A stretch of 39,807 nt of DNA from a virus. Of this stretch, positions 2,755 through 39,208 are shown in pieces. The stretch lies in IMG/VR virus record IMGVR_UViG_3300050821_023325, positions 1 to 39,807 of that record, one strand, 5' to 3'. The notes under the pieces were generated by a model. The model was not told the DNA's origin, did not search any database, and was given only the letters and a program-made list of their open reading frames with translations. The position numbers and the translations under genes are program-made. Positions within the stretch are counted from its first letter, which is position 1, and the number at the start of each line of letters is the position of its first letter.

Positions 2755-3291
2755 TTAAGCGAGCCCGAGAAGCGAACGGTCGGCGGCGAGAAGATCGTTA
2801 CCGTTTACCCGGTAGCGATAGTTGTAAAAATCCCAAAGCAAAGTTTCCGCCCCGTCGAGGAAATAAACGACGTAGGGAGTAACCAGTTCGATAACCGAGT
2901 CGCTCTTCTCCCCCGGGGTTAGCTTGCCGGGGTTAGCGCTCTTTACCCCGTCCGCTCCGAGGACGACCCGGAGAGCCTTGCTGTAGCGCTGGTTAGTAGA
3001 GGGGTCCTTGCCTTGGATAATCCCCCGTAGCTCGAAATTATCCCCGTCGACGTCCCCAAAAGAGCAAAATTCATCATCCGGCGTATGCAACGTAATTTTG
3101 GCAGTTAGCCCCTGGAAATGTCCGGGAATTACAGTTTCCATTTTTCCGGCTAGACCGCTCCCGGTAAGTTCCATGGTCAGGGCGTTCCAGTTCGGAAGCT
3201 CGGCGTCCGCCGCCCCGAGAAAGATATTTCCCTTACCCACCCTTCTCAAAGTGAAGTTGCGAATTACCGTGCCGATACGAGGGGTAGCCAT
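2755..3291 (-). CDS. Tail tube protein (P2 FII-like)
   Basis: A 178-residue protein of the size and pattern of the contractile-phage tail tube family (P2 FII, Phage_tube). It starts MATPRIGTVIRNFTLRRVG, has the early NIFLGAADAELPNW segment, the central ELTGSGLAGKMETVIPGHF beta region and a C-terminal SVIELVTPYVVYFLDG strand region followed by NYRYRVNGND. Subunits stack as hexameric rings inside the sheath and carry DNA at ejection. It lies directly downstream of the sheath gene, the usual order. The late element GGGTAATTCTA ends 4 nt before the ATG, although the upstream gene is only about 20 nt away. Confidence 0.9.
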   Translation of the reverse strand: MATPRIGTVIRNFTLRRVGKGNIFLGAADAELPNWNALTMELTGSGLAGKMETVIPGHFQGLTAKITLHTPDDEFCSFGDVDGDNFELRGIIQGKDPSTNQRYSKALRVVLGADGVKSANPGKLTPGEKSDSVIELVTPYVVYFLDGAETLLWDFYNYRYRVNGNDLLAADRSLLGLA

Positions 3292-3295
3292 ATTT

Positions 3296-3306
3296 TAGAA
3301 TTACCC
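3296..3306 (-). promoter_or_regulatory. Late element GGGTAATTCTA before the tail tube gene
   Basis: Exact consensus copy in the short gap between sheath stop and tube start. It ends 4 nt (AAAT) before the ATG. A separate start here would let the abundant tube protein be expressed independently of the sheath. Confidence 0.75.
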
Positions 3307-3314
3307 GTTAAAAG

Positions 3315-4860: not shown

Positions 4861-5136
4861 CTAAACGAGGGTTATCGGGGCCACTTTGGCAAACTTCTTC
4901 GCGTAATAGGCGTAGACCTGGGAGATGGCGGAAGTGGGCACCTTTAGGTCGGCAACGGTGCGGGCGAGCACCTCCGTCGGCACGAAAAGGGTAACCATGC
5001 TCGGATTCTCGTTAATCCGCTCTTGCACCGCCCTCGGATAGGCCCCGTTGCGAAAGGTAGTATGGGCAAATAAACCGATATCCGCCATACCCGGACCCAG
5101 GTACATCGTCGGTTTTCCTAGAGGGGTGGTAGCCAT
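4861..5136 (-). CDS. Conserved-position small protein upstream of the sheath gene (91 aa)
   Basis: A 91-residue protein beginning MATTPLGKPTMYLGPGMAD. It has no membrane segment and no motif I recognise. In P2/Mu-type phages a small protein of unknown function (DUF2635-type) often sits just before the sheath gene, so a tail role is likely from context alone. It is preceded by the late element GGGTAATTCTA 8 nt before its ATG, and its stop is 25 nt from the sheath start, so the two genes probably share a transcript. Confidence 0.7.
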   Translation of the reverse strand: MATTPLGKPTMYLGPGMADIGLFAHTTFRNGAYPRAVQERINENPSMVTLFVPTEVLARTVADLKVPTSAISQVYAYYAKKFAKVAPITLV

Positions 5137-5144
5137 CTTCGAGC

Positions 5145-5155
5145 TAGAATTACCC
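5145..5155 (-). promoter_or_regulatory. Late element GGGTAATTCTA before the 91-aa gene and the sheath gene
   Basis: Exact consensus copy ending 8 nt before the ATG at 5136. It lies in the short gap after the gene at 5182-5808 and would head the sheath transcript. Confidence 0.7.
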
Positions 5156-5181
5156 GAAGACCCGTTTCGACGACCCGGCGC

Positions 5182-6464: not shown

Positions 6465-6809
6465 TTACCGGTTCCTTACCAGTTTTAAGAACCAAACCTC
6501 ATAATCGTAGATGACGTCGACAACATGAAAAGCGTAACCCGCCGGGCTCTCGATAAAGAGATCCGGTTTCGGATGCCCGTAGAAATCGGCCCGGCGGATA
6601 CTGAGGAGAACGTCGCCCTGGTAATAGACGTTCCCGGCTCCCACGTTCGCGATCGGCTGCTCCCGCAAGGCCTCGTTCGACCAGATTACCGTCGGGCGGG
6701 AGCTAATCCGCGTCCCGTCCTCGCTAAGGTAGACGAGTTCCCGTTCCTCCCCGGCCACCTCGAGAAGGCGCTCGAAACCCGCTAACATAGCCGTATCGAA
6801 AGCATTCAT
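6465..6809 (-). CDS. Putative head-tail attachment protein (114 aa)
   Basis: A 114-residue protein, probably all beta: ELVYLSEDGTRISSRPTVIW, YYQGDVLLSIRRADF, and YAFHVVDVIYDYEVWFLKLVRNR. The pattern (a short N-terminal helix, then an OB-like barrel ending in W-x-L-x-L-x-R-N) is that of lambda FII/ATP-binding-sugar-like head-tail joining proteins, and the position after the coat gene and before the gpZ-like gene agrees. It is the first gene after a strong hairpin and carries a late element 8 nt before its ATG, so it heads a transcription unit. Confidence 0.7.
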   Translation of the reverse strand: MNAFDTAMLAGFERLLEVAGEERELVYLSEDGTRISSRPTVIWSNEALREQPIANVGAGNVYYQGDVLLSIRRADFYGHPKPDLFIESPAGYAFHVVDVIYDYEVWFLKLVRNR

Positions 6810-6817
6810 CTACGGGT

Positions 6818-6828
6818 TAGAAGTACCC
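6818..6828 (-). promoter_or_regulatory. Late element GGGTACTTCTA before the head-tail gene
   Basis: Copy with C at the sixth base, ending 8 nt before the ATG at 6809. It sits just downstream of the GC hairpin at 6839-6873, as expected if one unit ends and another begins here. Confidence 0.7.
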
Positions 6829-6838
6829 GTTAACGCAA

Positions 6839-8066: not shown

Positions 8067-9053
8067 TTACTTTCTCTTTGCGTATTCCTTCGCGATTAGG
8101 GCCCGGTGTTTTTGGAAATAGGTCATTCGCTCGGAGGGGTCTTCTAGCGCTTCTAGTTGCGCAATGTGACTGCCTAGAAGTACCCCGTTATCGGCGGCGA
8201 GGGTTTTGCTCTTCTCGGCGCTTACTCCGGTGGCAGACAATTTCCTCGCAGCCAAAATATCTGCGTCTTTTAATTGCGCAGTAAACTCCGCCGTTTGCGT
8301 CTCGAGTTTCTTCGCGAATTCGGCGGCCTGAATCTCTTGCGCCTTAACGATCCCTTCGAGAATCGTCTGGAACGACTTTAGACTCTCGGAGATCGAAGAG
8401 ACGGTCGCTTCCAGCGCCGTCACACGCGGATTTTCGGGAACGGGAGCCGCGTCCGTTTTATTTTCCGCGTTGGCGGTCGATTCTTCATTCATAGGAGGTA
8501 GAGAAAAAAGTCCATTGGGGTTCGCCGCTGGGTTATCCACTAAATCGCAACTAAAAATTTCTATGCAGCGGACCGCCGGTAAGGGGAGCCCGGCCACCTT
8601 TTCGACGTCGAAAGAAAAGGCCACGGAAAGCCCGATCGACTCCGGGATCGTCGAGGCTAGCTCCATGACATAATCGGCGGAGGGGGAGTTCTCGAGGAGA
8701 TGGAGATCGCCGCGAAGATGAGAAAATTCCTGGTCATCGTCATCGTCGTTATCCGGGTCGTAGTTGGGATCGGCCTCGTCGTTTACGTCGTCGATATTGC
8801 TATCCGGGGTAATCGAGAAATTGTCTATATAGCCGACGATATCCCCGACGTTATCGGAGTGGTTAAGCTTAACCTTTAAACCTCCGGCGTAGGTTTCCGC
8901 GCTAGCCATTAACGTCGCGAGCGTCGTTTTATCCGCCCAGACATCGTGCCCTTGGACGACGCCCTCCGTAATTAGGCTAACCCCGCTAATCGTCCGGCTC
9001 TCGGCGTCGATTTTCGAAGCCCCCGCTCGGGCAAACTGGATAATTTTCCCCAT
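8067..9053 (-). CDS. Capsid maturation protease fused to scaffold domain
   Basis: A 328-residue protein. The N-terminal 180 residues follow the prohead serine protease pattern: a beta segment with GVSLITEGVVQGHD, then KLNHSDNVGDIVGYIDNF with a candidate catalytic His at 65, and STIPESIGLSVAF with a candidate Ser at 139 or 143, closing with EIFSCDLVDNPAANPNGLF. A very acidic insert (about 84-109) lies between them. The C-terminal 140 residues are a predicted coiled coil (VTALEATVSSISESLKSFQ and on), as in scaffold domains. A separate scaffold from the internal ATG (MNEES) is possible but has no ribosome-binding site. Located between portal and coat genes, as expected. A late element ends 7 nt before the ATG. 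Confidence 0.83.
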   Translation of the reverse strand: MGKIIQFARAGASKIDAESRTISGVSLITEGVVQGHDVWADKTTLATLMASAETYAGGLKVKLNHSDNVGDIVGYIDNFSITPDSNIDDVNDEADPNYDPDNDDDDDQEFSHLRGDLHLLENSPSADYVMELASTIPESIGLSVAFSFDVEKVAGLPLPAVRCIEIFSCDLVDNPAANPNGLFSLPPMNEESTANAENKTDAAPVPENPRVTALEATVSSISESLKSFQTILEGIVKAQEIQAAEFAKKLETQTAEFTAQLKDADILAARKLSATGVSAEKSKTLAADNGVLLGSHIAQLEALEDPSERMTYFQKHRALIAKEYAKRK

Positions 9054-9060: not shown

Positions 9061-9071
9061 TAGAATTACCC
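9061..9071 (-). promoter_or_regulatory. Late element GGGTAATTCTA before the protease/coat unit
   Basis: Exact consensus copy ending 7 nt before the ATG at 9053 and only 4 nt beyond the portal stop. It would allow high coat and scaffold expression independent of the portal gene. Confidence 0.75.
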
Positions 9072-9075
9072 GCGA

Positions 9076-10718: not shown

Positions 10719-11039
10719 TTACCAGTAGGTCGCTACGGTGTAGTCTTGCGGGTAGGTCATCATGTAGTTACTAATTTGGGTCGCCGAGAAGTTGCGGATT
10801 ACCCAGTCCGCCTTGGCGATAAGGGCCTGGATGGTTAGCATCGGGATCGATTGCCCGCTCGACGCTTGCGGGAAGGCGAAACTCGTTCGCTTGCCCCCAT
10901 GCATCGACTCGGAGATATACATGCCGCCTTGCTGGCTTATCAGCACCGCCTGGCCGCTAACCAGGGCCTGCCATTGGCTCGGGTTAGCGAGACCATATTG
11001 GATTAGAGCGCGGAAGAGCCATTCGAGAGGAGGTACCAT
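10719..11039 (-). CDS. Small protein between terminase and portal (106 aa, gpW position)
   Basis: A 106-residue protein (MVPPLEWLFRALIQYGLANPS, QALVSGQAVLISQQGG, IPMLTIQALIAKADWVIRNF). Lambda encodes the head-tail joining protein gpW between terminase and portal, but this sequence is longer than gpW and shows no clear match, so only the position is comparable. A late element lies 7 nt before its ATG, and a cluster of hairpins separates it from the terminase gene. It ends 14 nt before the portal start. Confidence 0.68.
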   Translation of the reverse strand: MVPPLEWLFRALIQYGLANPSQWQALVSGQAVLISQQGGMYISESMHGGKRTSFAFPQASSGQSIPMLTIQALIAKADWVIRNFSATQISNYMMTYPQDYTVATYW

Positions 11040-11046: not shown

Positions 11047-11057
11047 TAGAATTACCC
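11047..11057 (-). promoter_or_regulatory. Late element GGGTAATTCTA before the 106-aa gene and portal gene
   Basis: Exact consensus copy ending 7 nt before the ATG at 11039, directly downstream of the hairpin cluster that follows the terminase gene. Confidence 0.75.
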
Positions 11058-11072
11058 GGGAGGGAGGTGCGA

Positions 11073-11207: not shown

Positions 11208-13022
11208 CTACCCGGCGATGGCCGTCGCCGCCGCCGTCGTTACGTCCATATCGACGTTAAACTGTTCGTCGAGCCGGAGGATATCGCAAGAGATCGCGAA
11301 GACGATCTGCATCGTCTCGCAGTCCCAGGCATGGTTAGGGCGGCTCCCGACGACTACCCAGCGCTGGGCGGGCCCATGATCGCCGGGAAGATCCTTCCGG
11401 ATCTCGGCGCTCATTTGCTCGGAGTAGACCCCCGGGATATCGTTCGGCACTTCGAAGGGCCGCAACCGGCCCATGCGGAGAAGCGAGAGCACGTCCTTAC
11501 AATGAAGATTCGAAAAGGAGAGCGCGTAACAAGCCCGCCCGTCGATCGCAATCGTCTGGAAGGGGGAGAAGGGCTTCTTAACCGGGGGCTTATCCTTCAG
11601 TGGATGGGTCCAGCTATTAACCCGGTCCCCCCGGAAGGCGATATGCCCGCCCCGGGCGCAAAAGGAGTAGACGTTCCCCGAGTCGTAACGGCAATCTACA
11701 GCCACCGCTGTGCTCAGCACCTTATAGCGCTTCGCCAGGGCGGTAATCTCCGTCCAATCGTTAATCCGGTCGTAGTAGAGAAGGCGGCTACTCCCGTCCG
11801 CCCGCCAGGCCCGGACCAGGGCCCAGAAGTGCCCGAGCTGACGATCTACGGTAAGGAACCGGATCATCTCCCCGGGAATAAGCTGACCCTCGAGATACTG
11901 CCCAACCCCGTACTGCCCCGCTTGGAGCTGGATCTTCGGTAACTCCTCCTCGTCGGACCAGAACTCCGCGCATCTTTTTTGCTTCCATTGCCGCATAGCG
12001 GCCTTATCCCCGATTTGCTTTATCCGGTCGTAAGCGACGATAAACTCGAGCACGATATTCGCCCACGGTATCCACCATACCGCTAGCACGTTTAAGTGGA
12101 AACCGATCCGCTCCGGCCAGGCATTATTTTCCTCTAATGGGCGGTAGGAGCCGGAGTCGGAAAGCCGTCGGCGGTTGTATTCGGTATCGTTAAAAGAAGC
12201 CTCGCACTTCGGGCAGGCTACCCGCACCGATTTAACGATCCCGGCGATGTCCCATTCCCCCTTCTCCGTCTTAAGCGAGTCGTATTTTAACATCTCCCGA
12301 CCGCACGAATAGGCGTTCCATTCGTTACAGTTGGGGCATAGCCAGCCGTAATCGTGCTTTAAGGTCGTTTCATGAAGTTGATAATGCTCGTCGTTAACGA
12401 CCCCCGCTTGCCCGAGAGCGAGAAGCACCCCGTTGGCCCGGTCGTGCAAACGGGCAAAAGCCTCCTTTACCATGCCGGAACCGAAGAGCCAAACCTCGTC
12501 GAGGAGCACGTAGCGGCAACTTTTACTTTGCAGCGTGTTGAGATTTGCGCCACCGAGACGCAACATCATGTGCGGAAATGCAATTTCCGTTTTTCGTTTT
12601 GCGTGCCGGTTTTGCGGCATTAAAACCCGCACCGCCGTTATGGCGTTTAGCATCGGCATGAGACGCTCCTCCGCCCAATCGGCAATGTCGTCGTCGCTTT
12701 GCCCGACGAAGAGGGAAGGCCCCGGATCTTGCGCGATTATGTAGGCGCTAAGGATCTCGATAAAAGTGGTCTTTCCGGCCCCAGTTGGTCCGATGAAACT
12801 AAGTACCTTGTATTCCCCGGAGGCGAAAGCGGTTAGGACCGGATTCCAGAACCGGGCAAAGGAACGCTCGAATTTCGGATTGCGGTCGCTATGCGGGAAA
12901 ATAACGTGCTCCTCCGCCCAATCGAGAATGTTGAGCCGCACCTCGGAAGCGGCCAGGGAAAGGATATGCCCGAGGATCGCCTGGTACTGGACCCGGTCCG
13001 GATGGCGGAGATCGGCGAGCAC
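11208..13022 (-). CDS. Terminase large subunit (lambda GpA family)
   Basis: A 604-residue packaging motor and nuclease. The ATPase domain shows Walker A FIGPTGAGKTTFIE (about 77-90) and a Walker B-like YVLLDEVWLFG (about 170). Two CxxC pairs, CPNCNEW (about 231) and CPKCEAS (about 268), give the zinc-ribbon-like insert common in GpA proteins. The nuclease domain has FLTVDRQLGHFW (about 390) and VAVDCRYDSG (about 440), each with the expected Asp. The GTG start lies 5 nt after the small subunit stop. AGGAGG occurs about 12 nt upstream, farther than ideal. The C-terminal tail is Ala/Thr rich. Confidence 0.93.
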   Translation of the reverse strand: MLADLRHPDRVQYQAILGHILSLAASEVRLNILDWAEEHVIFPHSDRNPKFERSFARFWNPVLTAFASGEYKVLSFIGPTGAGKTTFIEILSAYIIAQDPGPSLFVGQSDDDIADWAEERLMPMLNAITAVRVLMPQNRHAKRKTEIAFPHMMLRLGGANLNTLQSKSCRYVLLDEVWLFGSGMVKEAFARLHDRANGVLLALGQAGVVNDEHYQLHETTLKHDYGWLCPNCNEWNAYSCGREMLKYDSLKTEKGEWDIAGIVKSVRVACPKCEASFNDTEYNRRRLSDSGSYRPLEENNAWPERIGFHLNVLAVWWIPWANIVLEFIVAYDRIKQIGDKAAMRQWKQKRCAEFWSDEEELPKIQLQAGQYGVGQYLEGQLIPGEMIRFLTVDRQLGHFWALVRAWRADGSSRLLYYDRINDWTEITALAKRYKVLSTAVAVDCRYDSGNVYSFCARGGHIAFRGDRVNSWTHPLKDKPPVKKPFSPFQTIAIDGRACYALSFSNLHCKDVLSLLRMGRLRPFEVPNDIPGVYSEQMSAEIRKDLPGDHGPAQRWVVVGSRPNHAWDCETMQIVFAISCDILRLDEQFNVDMDVTTAAATAIAG

Positions 13023-13027
13023 GGGGT

Positions 13028-13702
13028 TTAAGCCTCCTCGGAGCCGTAGACGACCTGAGCGCTTTCCCGCAAAATCCCGAGAAGACGGGTGGCGATGGCA
13101 CTCAGTTTCACTTTCTCTATTTCGTTTTCCGCCGAATCGGGGAGTTTGCGGATCTCGATAATAATCGGGGCTAGCATTTTCGTTATCCGGTCCTTGTAGG
13201 CGTCGACGGCGATTAGGCGGCCCCGCTCGTGCTCGACCTTTATTACCATGCGCTCGGCGTTAAGAAGGGCTTTGCTAGCGTCCCGGTGCTCCTTGCGGAG
13301 GTACTCGATCTTATTCTGGATAAGGCTAAGAGTGCGCTCCGCTTCGATAAGCGCTTTCTTTCCCTTTGCGTTATCCCGGGCTTCCCGGGCTTGCGGGAGG
13401 CTAACGTTAACCCAGGCCTCGATTTGCCCGGAGACGGTGCGCTCGAAGGTCTGGAGCCGGGAAACGACATCGTAGGGATCGGTTCCTTGCGCCAGTTCGA
13501 AGGAGGGCGCTTGGAGAACCTCGCTCGGGGGCGTCGGCAAGCCCTTATGCGGGCGGTTAGAGGCCTGCCATTCCTTCGCCGCATCGATGGAGGCGTTCGG
13601 CATCCCGTGCCGTCGGCGCCATCCGCTTACCGTCGATTGCGTTACGCCGAGGGCCTTCGCGATTTCGGTGTCCGTAACTGGACCATTTACTGTCACCATC
13701 AT
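13028..13702 (-). CDS. Terminase small subunit
   Basis: A 224-residue protein with an N-terminal helix-turn-helix, TDTEIAKALGVTQSTVSGWRR (about 11-31), which would recognise the packaging site, followed by a long helical region (PQAREARDNAKGKKALIEAERTLSLI) suited to oligomerisation. It sits directly before the large subunit gene. The ATG ATG start has no Shine-Dalgarno sequence. Upstream lie a TATAAT box (about 20 nt before the start) and a late element 132 nt upstream, so it may have both a host-type and a phage-type promoter. Confidence 0.85.
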   Translation of the reverse strand: MMVTVNGPVTDTEIAKALGVTQSTVSGWRRRHGMPNASIDAAKEWQASNRPHKGLPTPPSEVLQAPSFELAQGTDPYDVVSRLQTFERTVSGQIEAWVNVSLPQAREARDNAKGKKALIEAERTLSLIQNKIEYLRKEHRDASKALLNAERMVIKVEHERGRLIAVDAYKDRITKMLAPIIIEIRKLPDSAENEIEKVKLSAIATRLLGILRESAQVVYGSEEA

Positions 13703-13892
13703 TTCAGGAAGCAGTTTTTACATTATAATTCTTTTATGTAAAATACGCTCGGACCGCTCCCGTTCCTTTCTTGTAGAAAAGAGATTCCTTCAGTGGGGGG
13801 CCAGGATCTAAAAAGATGGATATATGAGCTGGGATAGAATTACCCCGACCCCCTTTCGGAGACTGTAAAGCGGTCGAAAAGCTAGTCATAAC
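13703..13892. promoter_or_regulatory. Upstream region of the terminase unit with TATAAT box
   Basis: A 190-bp gap between the sigma-like gene and the terminase small subunit gene. On the minus strand it contains, in order, the late element GGGTAATTCTA (13835-13845) and an AT-rich stretch with GAATTATAATG (about 13722-13732), a good match to a host -10 box. No good -35 hexamer is seen at 16-18 bp from it. No open reading frame of note is present, and this is the only late element not next to a start codon. Confidence 0.5.
13835..13845 (-). promoter_or_regulatory. Late element GGGTAATTCTA upstream of terminase genes
   Basis: Exact consensus copy, 132 nt before the terminase start with no start codon close behind it. 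This argues that the element acts on transcription rather than as a ribosome-binding site. Confidence 0.65.
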
Positions 13893-14897
13893 TCATTTTA
13901 TTACAGTTACTGGTTGATTGTGCACGTGATTTAATCTAGGCTGTAGACCCGTCTCGCCATTAACGACGACGATCGGCACTCGACGGTACCATCGCGCCCT
14001 CGGCGGGCAAGAGGGTAAAATTCCCGCCATGCAATCGAGTAGCATAACCGTTTGCCACGGTTCTAAAACCAGAAGTAACGGCCAAAGTTTAGGGTCCCCC
14101 CGCTCGAGAAGGCCTCGTAGTACCTCTAATGCTTCTTCCCGCCGGGCATGCTCGGATTCGACGCGGAGGCGAAACTCATACAATTTAGCGCGCACTCCGG
14201 CAATAGTCGCTCGCACTAGGTTCTCGATCGACTTCGGATCGAGACTATGGCAAGGAAGTTTCGCCACTTCCGCGCTTAGTTCGGAAATGTATAATTGTTC
14301 TCCATTATCTGCCATGTCCAGATAACGCCGGGCAACGTAACGCATCAGGTTTTTATGCGGCAAGCCTTCCCCGATCTCGTTCGGGATCATAAACATTAAC
14401 TGTTCGAATTCCGCCGCCCGTTTCTGCACCGATTCGTTGCTAACGAAAGAGCTTTGCGAATCCTCGAGATCGAGATAATTGCCCTCCTCGTCCGTTGGCC
14501 AGTCGCCCCGATACTTATCCGCGTTGCGCTTTTTGCGTAGCCATTTCTGAAACGTGTTGCCGATGCTGGCCGTTAAGTAGGAAAAGAACTTGGAGCCGTT
14601 ATCCGGCTTATAGCTGTCGAGAATTTTGGGCAACTTAAGGACGAACTCGGAAACGATCGCTTCTAGCTGCGATTCGCCGACGCTGGCTAACCAACCACTC
14701 TTTAAGCTGAGCCATTCGATAAGCGGAATGACCTCGACGACGATTTCGCGGAAAAGCCTTTCCCGATCCTCCGGCACAAAATGCAATTTTTTATAGAGGG
14801 AAACGAGAGCTTCTAACTGCAAATTGCCGCCCGGATCGAAAAAATAAGCTTCTCCGCGCCGGTATCCGTTGCCGTTGCCATTTAAGGGTTTATCCAT
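13893..14897 (-). CDS. Sigma-like transcription factor (candidate late sigma, T4 gp55-type region 2)
   Basis: A 334-residue protein. Residues about 55-125 follow a sigma-70 region 2 pattern: helices around FREIVVEVIPLIEWLSLKSG, ESQLEAIVSEFVLKLPKIL, then YKPDNGSKFFSYLTASIG and NTFQKWLRKKR, close in layout to the 'FkPekssnpFaYfTqia.naFl..ikkekr' stretch of T4 gp55 and other phage sigmas. A later segment, LYISELSAEVAKL to IENLVRATIAGVRAKLYEF (about 195-235), could be a degenerate region 4 helix-turn-helix. It would direct host RNA polymerase to phage late promoters. The gene lies immediately upstream of the terminase genes, which begin the late region. A diverged late element (GCGTAATTCTC) sits 16 nt before its ATG, hinting at self-regulation. 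The function is inferred from pattern only. Confidence 0.68.
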   Translation of the reverse strand: MDKPLNGNGNGYRRGEAYFFDPGGNLQLEALVSLYKKLHFVPEDRERLFREIVVEVIPLIEWLSLKSGWLASVGESQLEAIVSEFVLKLPKILDSYKPDNGSKFFSYLTASIGNTFQKWLRKKRNADKYRGDWPTDEEGNYLDLEDSQSSFVSNESVQKRAAEFEQLMFMIPNEIGEGLPHKNLMRYVARRYLDMADNGEQLYISELSAEVAKLPCHSLDPKSIENLVRATIAGVRAKLYEFRLRVESEHARREEALEVLRGLLERGDPKLWPLLLVLEPWQTVMLLDCMAGILPSCPPRARWYRRVPIVVVNGETGLQPRLNHVHNQPVTVIK

Positions 14898-14901: not shown

Positions 14902-15261
14902 TTACGGATGAGAATTACGCGCCTCCAAGTTTTTCTGGAGAAGGTCGAGAATCTTTTGCTGGTTTTGCAGAGCTTGCGAATCGCTATCGAGCATTTTCGA
15001 ACCGTTGGCTAGAATTTCGCCGTTTTGCTTAATGCTCGTTTCTAAACCTTCTAGAATGGCGGTCTGATTCTCTAGGCTTTTTTCGATTCCCTCTAAAGCG
15101 ATCGCTCGCTGGCGGCCTTGTTCGCCGACTTGGGTAACTTCGGAGATATTAATTCCTTGGAGACCGAGTAACGCCGCGCCGAGTGCGCCGGTTAGGATTT
15201 TCGTCCAATCGACCGAGTGCTTACCACCGTTTTTCCCGGCTCCGTTAGAGTTATCCGACAT
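14902..15261 (-). CDS. Membrane-anchored coiled-coil protein (holin candidate)
   Basis: A 119-residue protein with a polar N-terminus (MSDNSNGAGKNGGKHSVDW), one hydrophobic segment KILTGALGAALLGLQGINI (about 20-38), and a long coiled-coil C-terminus with hexad/heptad spacing (ALEGIEKSLENQTAILEGLET, ILDLLQKNLEA). This topology is seen in some small phage holins and in other membrane tethers. No lysis gene is adjacent, so holin is only a suggestion. Its start follows AAGGAAA, a reasonable Shine-Dalgarno sequence, unlike the late genes. It ends 4 nt before the sigma-like gene, so the two are probably co-expressed. Confidence 0.65.
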   Translation of the reverse strand: MSDNSNGAGKNGGKHSVDWTKILTGALGAALLGLQGINISEVTQVGEQGRQRAIALEGIEKSLENQTAILEGLETSIKQNGEILANGSKMLDSDSQALQNQQKILDLLQKNLEARNSHP

Positions 15262-15315: not shown

Positions 15316-16563
15316 CTAATCGAGCGCAACCGTAAGTTCAGTCTCGAACGGATAAAGGGTGAAGTAGGCCTCCGCCGTCTCTCGGTCGACCACCTCCCAG
15401 TAATGCTCTCTTAATTCGCGTTCGGAGTGGTCGGCTTGCCCCGCCGTCCAAGTCAACCCCTTTAACGCCACGGCGTAGGAGCAAAAAGAATGCCGGAGCA
15501 CGTTCTGCGGCCAGGGAGAGATACCGGCTTTCCCCGCCGCCTCCGTCATTACGATTTGCAAGCCGGGCCGGGGAGGGAGGACGGATGTTGCGGGAATTCC
15601 CGCAACGTTATCCTCGGGAATTCTAGAGCGCGTCGAAAACGCGAATCTCGAGGATTCGACGCTTTCTTCGGTTATGAAGCAGCTCGAGGATGCGAGGATC
15701 TTCGCTAGATTCTCCGGGATTTCGAGGAGCTTGCGCTTGCCGTTTTTGGACTTGGAGAATGGTAAATCGATAAGCTTGCGGTCGAGCTTTATCTCGCTCC
15801 AATCCAATCGCTCCACCTCCGCCCGCCGCAAGCCGGTAAAGGCGGAGAGCGCGAAGAAGGGGAGGAAATCCGGGCGGAGTGCGGCGAGGAACTTTTTAAG
15901 TTGCTCCGGGGTAAGCACGGAGATTTGCCGTCCTCGCTTTGCCGGATCGTTAAAGGGGTCGACCTCGGCTAGGGGATTGGCCGAGAGGAGGTGCCAGCTC
16001 TTGGCCATGTTAAGCACGTTTTGCACGTAACCCAGGTGGCGGTTGCGGGTCTTTACGGCTAGGTCGAGGGACGACAGCCAGGTCTTTATCTCGTTCGCGG
16101 TAAGGAGAGCTACGCTCGTCGTTCCGAAGCGTTGCTCGAATTTGCGGAGCGTTTCCCGCATGCTTTCGGCGTGGCGATCGGAAATCTCCTTCTCTTTAAG
16201 ACGGCGCTCGAATTCGACCCTTACCCGTGCGCACAGTTCGCTTACAGCGATGGCGCCTCCTTGCCGGTCTAAATGATCCCGGAAGAAGTGCACCGCGTCG
16301 TAGAGGCTTTTCTCGTAAGGCCGGAGCATTTCAATGCATTCGGCAACCATAACCCGTTGCGTGTCCGTCAGGGAAGTCTTCGTACCGAAGGCGGCGATCT
16401 GGTCGTTTAGGTTGCGGGCGGCGGCTTTCGCTTCCTTCTCGGTAACGAAGTAATACCGTTCCCGCCGCCCGGACGGACGGCCCTCGATCTTCCATTCCTT
16501 CTTGCCGTTGGGGGAGGAGAGTTTAAAAACGCGAAAAGACTTGGACGACGGCGGGCGCGGCAT
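15316..16563 (-). CDS. Tyrosine recombinase integrase
   Basis: A 415-residue site-specific recombinase. The N-terminal part (GRPSGRRERYYFVTEKEAKAA) is arm-binding-like, followed by a SAM-like core-binding domain (about 85-195). The catalytic domain shows the first Arg in FTGLRRAEVERLDW (about 244), the HxxR-type box VLRHSFCSYA (about 355), DHSERELREHYWEVV with the late His and the nucleophile Tyr (about 388). It would integrate the phage at the host site matching the tRNA-like sequence at 16666-16708, which lies about 100 bp upstream of its start. An imperfect palindrome (TAGATATTTAAATCTA) overlaps the region just before the ATG and could be a control site. Confidence 0.93.
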   Translation of the reverse strand: MPRPPSSKSFRVFKLSSPNGKKEWKIEGRPSGRRERYYFVTEKEAKAAARNLNDQIAAFGTKTSLTDTQRVMVAECIEMLRPYEKSLYDAVHFFRDHLDRQGGAIAVSELCARVRVEFERRLKEKEISDRHAESMRETLRKFEQRFGTTSVALLTANEIKTWLSSLDLAVKTRNRHLGYVQNVLNMAKSWHLLSANPLAEVDPFNDPAKRGRQISVLTPEQLKKFLAALRPDFLPFFALSAFTGLRRAEVERLDWSEIKLDRKLIDLPFSKSKNGKRKLLEIPENLAKILASSSCFITEESVESSRFAFSTRSRIPEDNVAGIPATSVLPPRPGLQIVMTEAAGKAGISPWPQNVLRHSFCSYAVALKGLTWTAGQADHSERELREHYWEVVDRETAEAYFTLYPFETELTVALD

Positions 16564-16747: not shown

Positions 16748-17335
16748 TTATGCCACTTTCGCGCTCTTCTTTAGCTCGGCATAAGGGACGAGAGGTTGGG
16801 GGCCGCGCTTATTCGTGCGGGCATTGGATTTTAGGAGTCCGGCTTTTTTCTTCATGCGGTATGTCTTGCTCTTCTTACTCGCATCTCGCCGGGAGCTTTC
16901 GTTAACCGGGGCGACGACGCCGAGATATTCGAGGGAGTTCTTTACGAAGGGGTTTACCCGGGTAAGGAGGGCGGTCTTGCCGGTAAGGTCGAAACGGTTA
17001 ATATAGCGTTGTGCTCGTTGGTTAAAATAAATGCGGAACCGGTGGTTGAGGCCCGCGATTCTTTCCGTCCAGTAAAAGAAGCCGTCCTCGTAGACGGAGA
17101 TACTCTTCAGGAGAATTTCCCGCTTCGGATCGAGGATCATGATCCGCCGGGCGACCACCTTTAGAAGATTGGCAAATTGGCAGGTGCGCCGGTTTTTCGT
17201 ATGGCATTGCTTTTTAATGTATTCCCACTCCTTTTCGGTGGGATTAAAACGTAACCAGGGTATAGCGGTGGGAGGTGTAGGGGTAGGCATAGTTGTAAGA
17301 AGTTTAATGTTTAGGGGTTTTAACAGGTTTTCCAT
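16748..17335 (-). CDS. Unknown basic protein next to the att site (195 aa)
   Basis: A basic protein with aromatic-rich core segments (RFNPTEKEWEYIKKQCHTKN, SVYEDGFFYWTERIAGLN, FRIYFNQRAQRYINRFD) and a Lys/Arg-rich C-terminus (DASKKSKTYRMKKKAG). No family is recognised. The frame is open farther upstream, but that part overlaps the excisionase-like gene and lacks protein-like composition, so I start at MENLLKPLN (17335). MPTPTPPTAIPW at 17290 is an alternative just after the excisionase stop. It may bind nucleic acid, judging from charge alone. Confidence 0.55.
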   Translation of the reverse strand: MENLLKPLNIKLLTTMPTPTPPTAIPWLRFNPTEKEWEYIKKQCHTKNRRTCQFANLLKVVARRIMILDPKREILLKSISVYEDGFFYWTERIAGLNHRFRIYFNQRAQRYINRFDLTGKTALLTRVNPFVKNSLEYLGVVAPVNESSRRDASKKSKTYRMKKKAGLLKSNARTNKRGPQPLVPYAELKKSAKVA

Positions 17336-17522
17336 AGACGGTTTTCGCCTGGAAGCTGTTCCGCTCCAGGAACTCCGCGATATTGCGCCGGGTAAACAGC
17401 CAATGCCGTTTTCCGAGCCGCACGAAACCGATCCGCCCGGCGGCACACATTTCCCGAAGGACCCGGGTGCTTAGGCGTAGTTCTTTGGCCGCCTCGGCCA
17501 GGGTTAATTTTTCTTCGCTCAT
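17304..17522 (-). CDS. Excisionase-like helix-turn-helix protein
   Basis: A 72-residue protein starting MSEEKLTLAEAAKELRLSTR, with VLREMCAAGRIGFVRLGKRHW and LFTRRNIAEFLERN following. This is the winged-helix MerR/excisionase-type (HTH_17) pattern: an N-terminal helix-turn-helix then a basic wing. The start at 17522 is chosen because AGGAAG lies 4-9 nt upstream; a longer version from 17570 has no such site. It probably bends DNA at the att site and favours excision, given its place near the integrase. Its stop overlaps the downstream gene's start. Confidence 0.8.
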   Translation of the reverse strand: MSEEKLTLAEAAKELRLSTRVLREMCAAGRIGFVRLGKRHWLFTRRNIAEFLERNSFQAKTVYGKPVKTPKH

Positions 17523-19858: not shown

Positions 19859-20074
19859 ATGAGCGACAATTTAGATAATGCGGCAACGAAAGCCGATCTT
19901 GCGGAGCTAAGAACCTGGGTGATTAAGCGGGAGATAAAAGCCATCTACTGGTTCGCTTATATCATGCTGGGCTTTTGGGCGATTATCCTATTCTCGGTCT
20001 GGGTTCTCCTTAATGTAACAAATTTCTCCCTTAATTGGCGAATTGACGAACTTTTGCTCCGTTTACCTAAATGA
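19859..20074 (+). CDS. Small membrane protein with ATKADLAELR helix (71 aa)
   Basis: A 71-residue protein: a soluble N-terminal helix MSDNLDNAATKADLAELRTW, then one transmembrane segment WFAYIMLGFWAIILFSVWVLL (about 31-51), and a short polar tail. The ATKADLAELR stretch recalls the DUF1640/coiled-coil membrane family. It is a sequence relative of the next gene (shared MSD-LD-AATK-DLA-LR) and overlaps it by ATGA. It could be a membrane anchor or holin-like protein, but this is unproven. Confidence 0.65.
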   Translation: MSDNLDNAATKADLAELRTWVIKREIKAIYWFAYIMLGFWAIILFSVWVLLNVTNFSLNWRIDELLLRLPK

Positions 20075-20277
20075 GCGACGATTTAGATAGCGCGGCAACG
20101 AAACGGGACTTAGCCGATCTACGGATCGAACTAACCGACCGCATGCAGAAGGTGCAAGCCGACGTAAACAACTTACGCGCCGACTTTAATAGCATGCGCA
20201 ATTCCTTCCGGCTACAAATTGTCGTTCCTTCTCTAACCCTACTGGTCTCCTTACTTATCCACTACTTTTTTAAGTAG
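20071..20277 (+). CDS. Small membrane coiled-coil protein, paralogue of the preceding gene (68 aa)
   Basis: A 68-residue protein with the same N-terminal motif as its neighbour (MSDDLDSAATKRDLADLRIE), a longer coiled coil (DRMQKVQADVNNLRADFNSM), and a C-terminal transmembrane segment LQIVVPSLTLLVSLLIHYFF (about 48-67). This is the DUF1640-like layout. Tandem duplication followed by divergence is likely. The pair may form hetero-oligomers in the membrane; no catalytic residues are visible. Confidence 0.65.
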   Translation: MSDDLDSAATKRDLADLRIELTDRMQKVQADVNNLRADFNSMRNSFRLQIVVPSLTLLVSLLIHYFFK

Positions 20278-21752: not shown

Positions 21753-21974
21753 ATGCCTGAAAATGAAATCGTTCCCGTCCCGCTCGAAATCGCCCTCGAC
21801 GGCAAGATCCACGTCTTTTTCTTTACCGGCACGAAGAAAGCGGATATCCGCTTCGCCCGCATCGAGGACCTCGATAAGGTTTATCCCGGCGATCAGCTTT
21901 ACGCCGCTATCTACGAGCTAACGAAGGAGCGGAAGATTATCGAAAGTAACTCGAGCGCGACCGCTCCAGGCTAA
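21753..21974 (+). CDS. Small hypothetical protein (73 aa)
   Basis: A 73-residue protein: MPENEIVPVPLEIALDGKIH, VFFFTGTKKADIRFARIEDL, VYPGDQLYAAIYELTKERKI. Beta strands at the start and a helix at the end suggest a small compact fold; no family is recognised. It is the last + strand gene, and its final 38 bp overlap the tail of the convergent glycosyltransferase gene. There is no room for a terminator between them. Confidence 0.65.
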   Translation: MPENEIVPVPLEIALDGKIHVFFFTGTKKADIRFARIEDLDKVYPGDQLYAAIYELTKERKIIESNSSATAPG

Positions 21975-23043
21975 AGACCCGGTTGCTCTCGGCCAGGGTG
22001 CGGATGGCGAGCGGCAATTCCGGCTCGGCCAGAACCGTCTCGTAGAGATCGAGGGCCTCCGCATCCGCCCCGCAATAGTAGGCGGCGACGGCGCATTCGA
22101 GCGGGAGAAGGTAGTCGTAGACCGGCTTCTCGACGAAAAGCCGGTCCTCGGTGGGATAGGGAATGTCCAGCGCGGCGTGCAAAAAGAGATAGGCCTCCCT
22201 AAATCTCCTCGCCCGGGAATAGGCGATCCCGATCCGGTAGAGCGGCTCCGCCCGTTGCGGGCGGTAGGCGTAGGCGGCGAGATAATCCTCGAGCACCTCC
22301 GGGAACGGGTCGCCCCGGCGGGCCCGGATCTCGGCAACCTGGTAAAGGGAGTAGAAGACCTCCTCCGGCCAGCCCCCTTTTGCCGCCCGGCGGCGGTAAA
22401 AACGAATGGCCAGTTCCGGTTCGGCGGCGTCCCGATAACTTTGCGCTAAATAAAAAAGGTAGCGCTCGTTCTCCGGCTCGGCTAGCAAGGCCGTTTCGAG
22501 GACGATCGCATCCCGGCGGTAGGTTAGCGGGTCGCGGGCCCGGGCACCATCCGGGTAGCGGTAGATCCGGAGTCCATCGAAAGGGTAAACGCCCGGATCG
22601 TCCCCCGGCACGGTAATGTACTCGTGCAAAACCCCCCGGTATTCCCAGGGGAGATCCGCCCGCACCAGGGAGGTCTTATCGTAGACGATTTCCCCGGAGA
22701 CGACCTTTAGGGCATAAGCCTCCCGATCTAAGACCGGGAGATTAAAGCCGGGCTCCGCTTTTAAGATCTCGTCGGCATCGATGATCAGTAAATAACTCGC
22801 CTTCTTATACGCCCGTTTAAGCGCTTGCGTGCGGTTAGAGGCAAAGTCTACCCACTCGTCCTCGAAAACGTCCCCCTCTAGCCCCTGCAACGTTTCCCGG
22901 GCTATCTCCATCGTGCGGTCGGTCGAGCCGGTATCGCAGATAACGTAGGAGTCGATAAAGGGCCGCACCGATTCGAGGCATCGCCGGAGCACCGGCTCTT
23001 CGTTGCGCACGATCATGCAAAGACAAATCGACGGCTTCGTCAT
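21937..23043 (-). CDS. Family 2 glycosyltransferase with TPR-like C-terminus
   Basis: A 368-residue protein. The GT-A domain starts SICLCMIVRNEEPVLRRCLES (about 5-25), has YVICDTGSTDRTMEIA (about 33-48) for nucleotide-sugar binding and YLLIIDADEILKA (about 84-96) with the DxD metal-binding motif. HEYITVPG (about 140-147) completes the SunS/YclG-type pattern. From about residue 180 the sequence is a series of TPR-like helical pairs (ERYLFYLAQSYRDAAEPELA, PLYRIGIAYSRARRFREAYL), often used to hold peptide acceptors. It is the last gene of the fibre cluster. I infer that it glycosylates the collagen-like fibre proteins encoded upstream, which are rich in Gly-Pro-Thr triplets. Confidence 0.85.
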   Translation of the reverse strand: MTKPSICLCMIVRNEEPVLRRCLESVRPFIDSYVICDTGSTDRTMEIARETLQGLEGDVFEDEWVDFASNRTQALKRAYKKASYLLIIDADEILKAEPGFNLPVLDREAYALKVVSGEIVYDKTSLVRADLPWEYRGVLHEYITVPGDDPGVYPFDGLRIYRYPDGARARDPLTYRRDAIVLETALLAEPENERYLFYLAQSYRDAAEPELAIRFYRRRAAKGGWPEEVFYSLYQVAEIRARRGDPFPEVLEDYLAAYAYRPQRAEPLYRIGIAYSRARRFREAYLFLHAALDIPYPTEDRLFVEKPVYDYLLPLECAVAAYYCGADAEALDLYETVLAEPELPLAIRTLAESNRVFSLERSRSSYFR

Positions 23044-24370: not shown

Positions 24371-24982
24371 TCAAATTATAAAAACCGTGGTTGCCGGTGC
24401 GCTCCCCGGCACAAAACCGAGCAGGATCATATTCCAATTCGCCGAAACGCCATACTGACAGGTATAAGTACCGGCGGCGGAGATAATCTGATAGGCGGAG
24501 CTGGCACCCCCCGCGTTCTGCAGGAAAGTAAACGTGCTGCTGGCACCCATCGCTGGTTGATTAGTTCCGGTTCCGAGGAGGCTAAAGAGGAATTCCGAGG
24601 CTTGGCTGGCCGTTATAGCGAGGCTGGGTTTCGCGGAGTTGGAAGTGCTGAAGTTTTGGACATTGCCGTCGATGGTCGGGAGGCTACCTAACCCGGAAAC
24701 TTCGGCGAGGATAATACTCTTATTTCCGCTTCCTTGGGGCGTGACCACATTTCCAGCCGCCGCCGCCGCAACATTTGGGGCATGGAAAACGGTTATATAC
24801 CGGCCATTCTGAAGATACTGCACATCGAGGGTATAGACGTTGCCCGAGGTATCTAAGCACCCGGAAGCAAAAGCGGTGGAGGAATTCATCCCGACAATGT
24901 TGGTATTGCCAGCGGCTTGCGCTCCCGTATAAGTGCAAGCGGTAGCGTTCCCGGCATTGTTGCTCTGGGCGAGGGCGATCAT
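24371..24982 (-). CDS. Beta-sandwich adhesin-type protein (203 aa)
   Basis: A 203-residue protein with an Ig-like or jelly-roll repeat pattern common in phage structural proteins: [20 protein letters not shown] followed by [39 protein letters not shown], and [20 protein letters not shown]. Such domains usually bind surface glycans or decorate fibres. The ATG overlaps the stop of the collagen-like fibre gene as ATGA, so translation is coupled. It shows no signal peptide, which fits a virion component. Confidence 0.7.
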
Positions 24983-27900
24983 TGGGTACGAACCGAAACG
25001 GCTAAATTGGCGGCGGAAGAGAGGGCGGTAATTTGGAGACTTAGGGTATTGCCGGTGGCCACGGCTTGGCTAAGCGTTCCGGTGGCCAGCGTCGTCGATA
25101 CCGCAATACCGGTCGCTCCCGAAATCGCCGTGCCATTAAGCAAAAGCGAAATGGTGCAAGTGCCCGCCGTTAAAATAACGGAATACTTAACTACCGTGTA
25201 AGGGGAAGGAGCATCCAGCTGCAAGACGTAAGTCTTAACGGACGGGGTTTCGATAAAAACCGAAAATGCCTGGGCGGGAAGGGCGCTCCTTAAACTATGG
25301 CAGGCATTATCCCCTCCAACATAATCGGTCGAGTTCCCGCTTAATAGATTCATTAACCCCGGCTGCGTCGCATCCGCCGGAGGAATAGCGGGAATCCCCG
25401 CTGGGTTAAGCAGGGTTAAGACGTTCCCGGCGACGGCGGTTATTTGAAGCGCCCCGGCAAGGCCACTGCCAGCCGCCCCGGCGAAGTAGGCCATCTCCCC
25501 GGGAACCGCCCATCCGGCATCGGTAACCGTAACCGTCGTCGTCGCTCCCGAACCGGGCACCGTAAATCCGCCGGAGGTAGTGGTAAAAGAGTTGTGCCCC
25601 GCCGCCCCGGTAGGGCCGGTCGCGCCGGTTGGTCCAACGGCTCCGGCGGTTCCCGCTCCGCCGGTCGGTCCGGTCGGTCCGGTCGCGCCGGGAGATCCGG
25701 TCGCGCCGGTTGGACCGGTTGGACCGAGAGGCCCCGTGGGACCGGTCGCGCCGGTGGAACCGCTCCCCGTGGCAATCGTGCTCCAACCGCGTATCCCACT
25801 TACGTCGGTCCCGTATACTTTAGAAGGCCCGGGGGAGGTAACGTCGCCGACGAGGGAAATGACGGAGCCAGTGACGTTGACCGAGGAAACTCCCGAATAA
25901 GTTATCCCACCGGAACCGGGAGTAACGGCGGAAGGAGGAACCGGGTTTAAGAGGGTAACGGTATTACCCGCGATTCCAGTTATTTGTAGCGCTCCGGCTT
26001 GTCCACTCCCAGCCGCGTTGGCACAATAAACCATTTGCCCGGGCGACATCCAGCTCGGATCGGCAACGCTTACTTGAACCGAGGCTCCTATTTGGGGGAC
26101 CGAGAAGCTCCCGAGGGCGGTCGTCGTAAAGGCGTTCCCGCCGGGATAGGGCGCGGGATTTAACAAAGTTAGGACATTTCCATTAATCCCGACGACTTGC
26201 AACGCGCCCGCTAAACCCGACCCAGCCGCGTTGGCCACGTAGACCATTTGCCCGACCTCTACCCAGGCCGCGCTGGCGACGGTTGCCGGGCCGGTCGCAC
26301 CGACATTGGGGACGGTAAAAGGGAGGGTCGAAACGATCGTCGAATAGGCGTTGCCCCCGGTTCCTCCAGTTCCTCCGGTTCCTCCAGTCCCTCCGCCTCC
26401 GCCGCCTCCGACGATGGCCCCATAAACGTAGGCTCCGGAATCCCAACTAGCGGCTAGCCGCTGGACGATCGTCGGATTTGGGAAAGCGGTTCCGGGGAGG
26501 ATGCCGTAGGAGTACTCGACGTCGAGGGTAGCATCCCCCGCTCCGACGCAGGGGGAACCGGCCTGGAGATTAAAATTGCTGTTCGTCGGATCGACGAGGA
26601 GAGGGTCGGCGGTTACCGATCCGCCCGGGCCGGAAAGGGAGGTATCGGTGCCGTTGCGGTAAAGGAAATTATTCCCGAACCCACTCTTCGTCATCTCGCA
26701 AGAGGGCACCCCGGTAAAGCCGGGATAGGTCCAGAGGATATTATTCTTCCAGGTAGCCGTGCCCGCACCGGTTTGGGTCGAATTCGTAGCAAAAAAGCCG
26801 ACGTCGTTCCCCGGTTCGAGGGACTTAATAACGGTATTACCGATGAAGAAGTGGGTATCGCCGGGGTTGGGATTCTTATTATCCCTTACCCCGTTATTTA
26901 CCCCACTTCCGCTTGTCCAGAAGATGGCGCTCGGGTTAAGCGGGCAATAGAAGATGTTGCTATAGATCTTAATCGCCGGAGTGCCGACGAGGGCCTCCAT
27001 CATCATCCATGAGGAATTGCCGTCCGAATCGAAAGCTTGCGGCGGGTTATGGGCGGTAAAATTCTGGTTCTCGACCCAGTTATAGCGAACAATCCAATTA
27101 CTGGGATTGGCATGCCCGCTCCCCCCGGTTAGATACGTCTGGATACAGTCATTGTGCCGCCCGGTAGCGTTGCCGGGGGCTCGCATGACCAGCTTATTTT
27201 TCTCGACGGTTATATTAACCCCCGACCCTAAGTGGATAATATCCGATTGGTCAGTATTATTTATGGCCGTCGTTAAGCTGTTACCCCGAATGATAAAGTC
27301 ATGAGCATCGTCTCCTACAATCCCGAACGAATGGTTAAGCGCGGTGCAATTGGCGATCGTCATATTGAATGACTGATTTACGTTCATCCAATTTACCGCG
27401 TTATTAATATTGGTCGCTAGCCAGGTTAGGCTATCGATTACGATGTCGTGCGAGCTGGTAATCGCAATCGTCGTAGGAAGACTATTGGGGAACGGAGTGC
27501 CGACGGTATTAGGGTCGATCGTTCCCCCGAGGAGGGTAAGGAACGAACGGCTAGCGAGGGTAATATAGGGAAAGCCGGTGGCCAGGCGTAGATCGAGAAA
27601 GATGGGGCTACCGCTCGCTCCGTTGCAGCTCGGCGCGAGGGCGCTCGTAAAGGCCCCGGAAAACTGGACGACCATTCCGGCGGCGAGGGCGTTATTGCCG
27701 TTAAAGGTGCTAATGGAAGCCGGGGAACCGACGCTCGAACCGTTGCCGGTGCCGCCTTGCGTAACGAAATAGCTCGCTAAACCCGGCGGGCTAACCGGCG
27801 GCGTGGGGGCCACGGTAACCCAATTCGACCCGGTACCGCCCGTGCCGCCCGTGCCGCCCGTTCCACCTCCACCCGAGCCCGCCGGTATACTCCATGCGCC

Positions 27901-29850
27901 GGTCGAATCGAGGTAATGAGTTGGATTTCCGTCTAGTTTTGGAGCTAGCCCGGGAGCGGAAACGGAGACGAGAGGGGAGGTTGCCCCGGAAAGACCGGTC
28001 GGTCCGGTTGGGCCCGTGGGGCCGGTTGCCCCGGTTGCACCCGTTAACCCGATAGAGCCGGTTGGCCCGGCGGCCCCGGCTAGACCCGCGACGCCCTGCA
28101 CGCCCTGCGGCCCGGTAGCACCGCTCGGGCCGGGCGCACCGCTCGGGCCGGTCGGGCCGGTAATCCCGACCCCGGCGGGGCCGGTCGGCCCGATATTTCC
28201 GGTCGCCCCGGAAGGGCCGGTAGGACCGGTAGGCCCAGTTAAAGAAGCGCCGGTCGCCCCGCTCGGTCCGGTAGCACCGGTCGCTCCGGCGGGCCCAGTG
28301 GGGCCGGTATTTCCCGTATTCCCGGTAGCCCCGGCGGCCAGAAGGGACCAGCGGCTCGGATCGATTACCGGGTCGACCCCGGTCGAAGATAAAAGGGCAA
28401 CGTAGCTCGAACCGTTGGTCGTTCGGAAAACGGTATCGTAGGGCGAATAGGCAACCGTATTAGACCAGGTTCCCCGGAAAGTATAGCCTTGCCCGCTTTG
28501 CCCGACCGGTCCTACCGCTCCGGTTGGCCCAATCGGCCCCGTATTTCCGGTCGGTCCGGTCGGGCCGACGTTCCCGGTCGCTCCGGTATTGCCGATATCG
28601 CCTTTCGCTCCCGTCGCCCCAGTCGCTCCGGCGGCTCCGGTAGGCCCGGGTGCACCGCTTGCCCCGGTCGCCCCGGTCGAACCGGTGGGGCCGAAGCTGC
28701 CCGTCGGCCCGGTCGGACCCACTAGCCCGGTCGCCCCGCTTACCCCGGCGTTGCCGGTTGGGCCTTGGGCTCCGGAAGGGCCGGTATTCCCTTGCGGGCC
28801 GGTTGCTCCAGTATGTCCGGTCGCCCCGGCGGGCCCTTGAATGGAACCGACGTCTACCCATTGCCCCGGTGCGCTCCAAACCCAGCCGTGGCCAGTATCC
28901 GAAGTTATCCATAAATCCCCATAGACATTTCCGGAGGGCGGTAAAGCGTTAAAAGTCGAGACCGAACCCTTTAAAATAACGGAAGTGCCGGTCGGTCCAA
29001 CCGGGCCGGTAGGCCCGACGTTTCCCTGGATGCCTTGCGACCCTTGCGGCCCGGCGATTCCTTGCGACCCCTGGGGGCCGGTCACCCCCACGGGACCGGG
29101 AGGCCCTTGGATGTGGCCGACGTTTACCCATTGCCCGGGGGCGCTCCAGACCCAGCCTTCCCCCGTGCTACTGACGATCCAAAGATCGCCGAAGGTATTG
29201 CCGGAACTCGGCAAATTAGCGAAGGCGGGAACGGAGCCTTTTAAGACGACGGAGGTTCCGGCGGGCCCGGTCGGCCCAGTGCCTCCGGTCGCCCCCTGAA
29301 TTCCTTGGATTCCTTGGCCTCCGGTTGCTCCTTGCGGCCCGGTATTCCCCATCGTTCCTTGCGGGCCGGTTGGGCCGGTATGTCCGATCGGTCCGATAGG
29401 ACCGGTAATCCCTTGCGGGCCTTGCGCTCCGTTCGCTCCGATGGGCCCGGTCGCTCCGGTATTCCCGATCGCGCCGGTATCGCCTTTTAAACCGGTCGGG
29501 CCCTGTGCCCCGGTCGATCCCCGAAGGCCGGTCGCGCCTTGGATTCCGGCGGGGCCGGTATCCCCTTTAGTTCCGGTTAAGCCTTGGGCCCCGGTATGCC
29601 CGGTCGCCCCGGTAGCCCCCGGTGCACCCGCCGCTCCCGTTGGGCCGGTCGCGCCCGGCGTGCCCGGGCTCCCGAGACCGCCGACGAGCCCTTGCGGGCC
29701 GGTAGGCCCCGTAGGGCCGATTGGGCCAGTATTCCCGGTCGGTCCGGGCGGTCCGCCGGAGGGGCCGGTCGGTCCGGGAGGGCCGCTACCGGCTAAGGTA
29801 ACGCGGACCTTAATCGGCTGCGTGTAGACGGGAGTAGTAGTCTCCGGCAT
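24979..29850 (-). CDS. Giant collagen-like tail fibre with beta-helix domain (1623 aa)
   Basis: Residue map (approximate). 15-200: Gly-X-Y collagen repeats, dominated by GPT and GAT triplets. 203-250 and 292-338: two copies of a small domain ([40 protein letters not shown]) separated by collagen. 340-450: collagen. 453-500: a carbohydrate-binding-like domain ([20 protein letters not shown]). 500-625: collagen. 655-675: Gly-Gly-Thr linker. 683-1135: right-handed beta-helix, pectate-lyase-like ([33 protein letters not shown]). 1150-1168: second GGT linker. 1170-1303: two copies of a 65-residue repeat ([20 protein letters not shown]), and a third near 1420-1483 after more collagen. 1507-1623: C-terminal TNF/C1q-like trimerisation domain. 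It is a long trimeric stalk with a possible depolymerase. Confidence 0.85.
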
Positions 29851-29854: not shown

Positions 29855-30226
29855 TTAAAGGGGGTTTATCTCCGGCATATCCGGCCCGTCGCGGACGGCG
29901 GCGGGCCCGCCGCAAAGGGCCGCCGGGGCCGCTCCGGGGGCTCTCGCAAGCACCCGCCAGGAATAAGCCCGGGTAAAATCGAGGGCGCTGGTATCCCCGT
30001 CGGAAAGAACGAAATTAGTGCCGCTATCCCCGCTCCCGGCGATAAGCTCTTGCGCGAAGGAGGCGGTAACCGGCCAGCTATAGTCCCAGGCGCTCGGCGC
30101 GATCTCGAGCCGATAGGTCCAGAACGGAGTAACGAAGGGCGTGCCGTCCCCCTTCTCGAGCGCCAGCGGCAAGCTATACCCGGCGTTCCGGTAAAGGGTA
30201 ATCGGGATATTAAAAGGATCGTCCAC
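29855..30226 (-). CDS. Baseplate-associated beta-sandwich protein (123 aa)
   Basis: A 123-residue protein: [60 protein letters not shown]. The opening 'itl.rn..ysl.l.....dG' strand pattern resembles the N-terminal Ig-like domain of BppU-type baseplate proteins, and the gene at 31679-32056 has a similar layout. It is located between fibre genes, so it may connect a fibre to the baseplate. It starts with GTG, preceded 8 nt upstream by a near-consensus late element, and ends 4 nt before the giant fibre start. Confidence 0.65.
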
Positions 30227-30234: not shown

Positions 30235-30245
30235 AAGAATTACCC
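30235..30245 (-). promoter_or_regulatory. Near-consensus late element GGGTAATTCTT before the giant fibre unit
   Basis: Ten of 11 bases match the consensus (last base T). It ends 8 nt before the GTG at 30226 and would head the unit that includes the 1623-residue fibre. Confidence 0.6.
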
Positions 30246-30249
30246 CGGG

Positions 30250-33669: not shown

Positions 33670-33680
33670 TAGAATTACCC
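33670..33680 (-). promoter_or_regulatory. Late element GGGTAATTCTA before the gpH-like fibre gene
   Basis: Exact consensus copy ending 4 nt (CGGC) before the GTG start at 33665. Confidence 0.75.
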
Positions 33681-33685
33681 TACCG

Positions 33686-35445: not shown

Positions 35446-35456
35446 TAGAATTACCC
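35446..35456 (-). promoter_or_regulatory. Late element GGGTAATTCTA before the gpJ-like gene
   Basis: Exact consensus copy ending 4 nt (TCTC) before the GTG start at 35441 and 11 nt beyond the gpW-like stop. Confidence 0.75.
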
Positions 35457-35467
35457 GCCGGGAAAAA

Positions 35468-39197: not shown

Positions 39198-39208
39198 TAG
39201 AATTACCC
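39198..39208 (-). promoter_or_regulatory. Late element GGGTAATTCTA before the gpX-like gene (divergent pair, minus strand)
   Basis: Exact consensus copy ending 7 nt before the ATG at 39190. It directly abuts the + strand copy at 39209-39219, so the two make a perfect 22-bp palindrome. Confidence 0.78.

Follow-up and report, generated by a model that had tools for sequence, protein, structure and literature searches.

At the entry to the late gene region of this virus contig (39,807 bases, analysed over its full length and referred to here as the window) is a 334-residue open reading frame on the minus strand (13893–14897, ATG to stop) that encodes a candidate late sigma factor of the sigma-70 family. 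The initial annotation had reported a 334-residue ORF at this position, with no strand given, and had placed it directly upstream of terminase; both statements hold. The minus-strand order is a tyrosine integrase gene (15316–16563; phrog_1, E = 3.3e-31), a gene for a 119-residue protein of unknown function (14902–15261), the sigma gene, a gap of ~190 nt, the terminase small subunit gene (terS), the terminase large subunit gene (terL), the portal gene and other head and tail genes. The small subunit-like protein, next downstream of the sigma gene, is a helix–turn–helix (HTH) protein (13028–13702; phrog_141, E = 4.4e-6), and the large subunit, TerL, is of the GpA type (11208–13022; Pfam GpA_ATPase, 1.9e-21). 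The 119-residue protein, encoded immediately upstream of the sigma gene, has no family match at E ≤ 0.001 in scans of PHROG, Pfam and NCBIfam. Owing to the presence of the integrase, the phage is probably temperate, and as TerL is nearest to those of metagenomic phages and Verrucomicrobiota-type MAGs, the host group is likely to be Verrucomicrobiota.

Sigma region 2 occupies residues about 46–124 of the protein (14526–14762). This assignment can be considered secure because of the match to the NCBIfam sigma-70 model TIGR02937 with its yardsticks, a chromosomal relative, and profile alignments compared with shuffled sequences. TIGR02937 matches residues 76–175 with an E value of 8.4e-9 and a score of 35.3 bits, below the curated cut-off of 42.9; by the same model the established phage sigmas, used as yardsticks, fall under the curated cut-off as well, with phiEco32 gp36 matching at E = 4.1e-5 and T4 gp55 giving no match. 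Pfam Sigma70_r2 matches residues 79–124 (E = 0.0014, under its gathering score). In hhalign comparisons, an ECF profile aligns to residues 72–144 with a score of 51 (five shuffles, at most 16) and the sigma factor of cyanophage S-CBWM1 aligns to residues 43–119 with a score of 35 (shuffle maximum, 19). None of ten other window proteins scanned against NCBIfam matches any sigma model.

The nearest relatives of the sigma protein appear to be chromosomal ECF-type sigmas. One protein stood out as a clear relative in a search of 388 genomes from the phylum of a Verrucomicrobium: an ECF sigma encoded on a chromosome (L125/L151) and matching residues 73–169 with 27% identity (E = 2.1e-7; BLASTP between the two proteins, E = 5e-11). 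The alignment of the two runs through region 2, and the stretch WPTDEEG just behind it (residues 133–139, 14481–14501) is common to both; the chromosomal protein additionally has a recognizable region 4, ends in a zinc finger-like segment and is encoded with no evident phage region around it. The near-identical copy of this relative, L125, passes the TIGR02937 cut-off. Together with the TIGR02937 match and the hhalign controls, the BLASTP alignment supports, on sequence statistics, membership of the sigma-70 superfamily. A sigma whose region 2 is ECF-like is the better description of the protein; because its TIGR02937 score is under the curated cut-off and region 4 is undetected, we do not count it as an ECF sigma in the strict sense.

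The C-terminal 180 residues yielded no sequence match to region 4. Single-sequence AlphaFold2 models have a mean pLDDT of 44 at full length and 58 for residues 25–250; within the latter, a three-helix segment (residues 182–248, 14154–14354; pLDDT mostly about 65–85) is possibly a diverged counterpart of region 4. Taken as a whole, however, the models are too weak to support a fold assignment, and Foldseek searches with them gave no significant structural match. Sigma factors do appear in the lists, which we take as a hint at most: sigma H and WhiG at ranks 1–2 and Escherichia coli sigma E at rank 24 for the first low-confidence model, all with E of at least 0.5, and sigma E at rank 14 for the second.

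In phage T4, a short single-block element stands before each late gene, and the late sigma factor gp55 carries a C-terminal sliding-clamp epitope. The region 2 layout and the location of late genes behind a short single-block element are points of likeness to gp55, whereas the epitope and a separate partner, gp33, are features of the T4 protein; no hydrophobic–acidic epitope of the gp55 type is recognizable by eye in the C terminus of the sigma protein, NQPVTVIK. T4 gp55 has no region 4, the counterpart of which is gp33 (PMC2988020). The initial annotation had read the layout of gp55 from the peptide YKPDNGSKFFSYLTASIG followed by NTFQKWLRKKR. Both peptides are present, at residues 96–124 and inside the supported region 2 match, and a general sigma region 2 pattern is indeed common to the two proteins, but kinship with gp55 is not borne out by BLASTP, PHROG or hhalign. 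BLASTP aligns SYLTASIGNTFQKWLRKKR with the corresponding gp55 motif AYITQACFNAFVQRIKKER at E = 0.15 over 19 residues, PHROG 234 recognizes gp55 and not the sigma protein, and the hhalign score against gp55 is at the level of shuffles. The remark that gp55, at about 185 residues, is the shorter protein is correct (185 versus 334 residues).

Repeated at the start codons of the late genes is an element of 11–12 bases, CGGGTAATTCTA. Allowing up to two mismatches, the element has 17 hits in the window against 5.1 expected, and 12 of the 17 end 4–12 nt before an annotated gene start (binomial P about 1e-24). Among these 12, the distance to the start codon is 4 nt in five cases, 7 nt in three, 8 nt in three and 12 nt in one, this last one being the poor copy that precedes the sigma gene. 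With a further good copy before terS, the total is 13, of which 11 are good copies located 4–8 nt before the starts of late genes or of divergent tail genes. Essentially all structural genes, but no early-type gene, fall in sub-operons headed by the element. A −35-like block was sought upstream of the element at fixed and variable spacing and was not found; provided that the element is the promoter that the sigma protein reads, it is not the bipartite −35/−10 promoter characteristic of the ECF group.

Located by motif search on the minus strand are copies 7 nt before the gene at 10719–11039, which the portal gene follows (element at 11047–11058), 7 nt before gene 8067–9053 (9061–9072), 8 nt before gene 6465–6809 (CGGGTACTTCTA, 6818–6829), 8 nt before gene 4861–5136, which is followed by a likely tail sheath gene (5145–5156), 4 nt before gene 2755–3291 (3296–3307) and 4 nt before a tail chaperone-like gene at 2122–2544 (CGGGTACTTCTA, 2549–2560). 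At the other end of the window, minus-strand copies lie 4 nt before the baseplate J gene 34266–35441 (35446–35457), 4 nt before gene 32058–33665 (AGGGTAATTCTA, 33670–33681) and 8 nt before gene 29855–30226 (GGGGTAATTCTT, 30235–30246). This last gene is followed by that of a 1,623-residue tail protein (24979–29850) composed largely of collagen-like repeats.

Two divergent copies of the element form a perfect 22-bp palindrome (39198–39219). Its minus-strand half (39198–39209) lies 7 nt before the tail gene 38957–39190, and its plus-strand half (39208–39219) lies 4 nt before the gene of a probable tape measure protein. The latter gene (39224–39805), which starts at the palindrome, is inverted relative to the minus-strand tail genes that flank it.

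In the gap before terS, a copy of the element (GGGGTAATTCTA, 13835–13846, minus strand) is located 132 nt from the terS start codon. Directly before terS, at about 13705–13735, is also an AT-rich inverted repeat, TTTTACAT and ATGTAAAA separated by 12 nt, with TATAAT inside it, which is possibly an operator or a host-type promoter. The copy associated with the sigma gene itself (CGCGTAATTCTC, 14910–14921, minus strand) falls within the 3′ coding end of the 119-residue ORF. The initial annotation had described a diverged element here, 16 nt before the ATG; the element is present, at a distance of 12 nt. It has two mismatches to CGGGTAATTCTA, a quality at which chance alone would give about five hits in the window, and from the window hit rate we estimate at about 2% the chance of an accidental hit of this quality just before some phage gene. 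Feedback of the sigma factor on its own gene, for which this one poor copy is the evidence, is possible.

We propose, with a probability of roughly 60%, that a phage sigma-70-family factor with an ECF-like region 2 directs the host core polymerase to single-block late promoters. The gene lies at the entry to the late region and the repeated element lies before the late operons, and from this position and the start-codon element the most likely role of the protein is that of a late specificity factor. The phage sigma with a late role put forward in the initial annotation is retained, as a member of the sigma-70 family and detached from gp55. In the proposed mechanism, the sigma protein would be made early or on induction, its region 2 would bind the host core RNA polymerase, and the holoenzyme would be directed to GGGTAATTCTA, a single-block promoter with no conserved −35. 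About a dozen sub-operons would be started by the element, jointly covering the terminase, head, tail and baseplate genes. If transcription began 6–8 nt past the block, as with phiEco32 gp36, most mRNAs would start at the start codon or within a few bases of it, and would therefore be leaderless or nearly so. That the sigma protein reads this element is something we infer from their co-occurrence in one genome, the sole tie between the two.

A late sigma factor is a known kind of phage regulator, encountered here in an unfamiliar phage. A functional parallel may be Xpf of the Bacillus subtilis prophage PBSX, the gene of which lies before the PBSX terminase genes. Xpf is a protein of about 20 kDa with sigma2 and sigma4 domains, whereas the protein described here has 334 residues and no detectable sigma4. 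By description, the likeness lies in a sigma-70-family protein of group IV (ECF) type that belongs to a temperate, myovirus-like element and that in PBSX serves as the positive control factor (PMC10141391). The second parallel is phiEco32 gp36, which, with the sigmas of phages SU10 and 7-11, is ECF-like and uses a single −10-like motif, its own gene being under such promoters as well (PMC4281155, PMC4331800). A single motif, tAATGTATAtA, is read by the phiEco32 sigma and lies 6–8 nt before the points at which transcription of middle and late genes begins (PMC4281155). In common with the proposed factor are the phage-encoded ECF-like sigma, the single-block motif and the middle or late target genes; phiEco32 differs in being a lytic podophage with three middle and three late promoters, versus 13 element copies here, mostly at start codons. 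Pairwise comparison and hhalign detected no pairwise sequence similarity between gp36 and the sigma protein.

The same co-occurrence leaves room for a true sigma factor that serves other promoters, those of host genes or of a few phage genes, while the element is read by another factor, for example a DNA-binding late activator acting with the host sigma. This we consider unlikely. Protein and element have no direct link, two copies of the element make up a perfect 22-bp palindrome, as might be expected at the site of a dimeric regulator, and proteins of unknown function are encoded nearby (14902–15261 and 16748–17446). However, an activator site 4–8 nt before a start codon would coincide with the transcription start or lie beyond it, the element is not accompanied by any consistent −35 or host-type promoter block, and the NCBIfam scan of eleven window proteins revealed no second sigma-like protein.

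The element might instead be a translation-initiation signal in the mRNA, with the sigma-like protein acting elsewhere: the spacing of 4–8 nt resembles that of a Shine–Dalgarno sequence, few phage genes have a Shine–Dalgarno sequence of their own, and the genes that lack the element mostly lie close behind the preceding gene. We regard this as improbable, given that the element is absent from the early-type genes and, by eye, has no obvious complementarity to the 3′ end of 16S rRNA. The good copy 132 nt before terS has no adjacent start codon, which is easier to reconcile with a promoter than with a signal for translation. Finally, the divergent C-terminal part with no detectable region 4 and the TIGR02937 score under the curated cut-off would suit a captured sigma devoid of promoter function, such as an anti-sigma decoy or an adaptor that merely binds the core polymerase, but this is very improbable, as region 2, which opens and reads the −10, is the best-preserved part of the protein, and T4 gp55 functions as a late sigma equally devoid of region 4, with gp33 as its counterpart (PMC2988020).

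Under the preferred reading, that of a sigma factor directing late transcription from the element, a fuller picture can be drawn, which we offer as tentative and, taken as a whole, rather doubtful. A temperate phage would here use a sigma of ECF origin in which the C-terminal domain has been replaced, together with promoters that consist of a −10 alone and abut the start codons, would express its whole structural regulon from leaderless or nearly leaderless mRNAs, and would have a palindromic promoter firing in both directions for the tape measure gene and the tail genes next to it.

Few phages have so far yielded a sigma factor together with its promoters, and a literature search found no report of such a pair in phages that infect Verrucomicrobiota, which is the likely host group here. 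With a factor and a clear 13-copy element in one genome, the proposed pair is directly testable, and such a test would show whether an ECF-type region 2 works from a single short block at the start codon. Searches of viral contigs with the single sequence, and with its alignment to the chromosomal ECF sigma, returned no homologue of the sigma protein, and tblastn of phage records gave only a weak match, to a cyanophage sigma (E = 0.5). Among TerL relatives in viral contigs and genomes, those contigs with sufficient upstream sequence have no sigma homologue before terS. The two nearest by TerL (46%; L044 and L045) do not have the element, and L044 is cut off at the place expected for the sigma gene. 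A relative carrying a homologous sigma as well as the element was not encountered in the viral collection, and the palindromic form of the element was not found in viral contigs.

In three related phages (L002, L020 and L064), a protein of 106–146 residues is encoded at a comparable position, with a few genes between it and TerL. Its C-terminal end in L064 is HTH-like by eye, and the proteins of L020 and L064, the two scanned, have no Pfam match; this protein may be what regulates the late genes in that clade.

Two further features of the window lie away from the sigma gene. Two small plus-strand ORFs that lie side by side at 19859–20277 begin alike, each with a near-copy of one 51-nt sequence (78% identity), a recent duplication. 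At the end of the tail module is a gene (21937–23043) for a glycosyltransferase family 2 protein with tetratricopeptide-like repeats.
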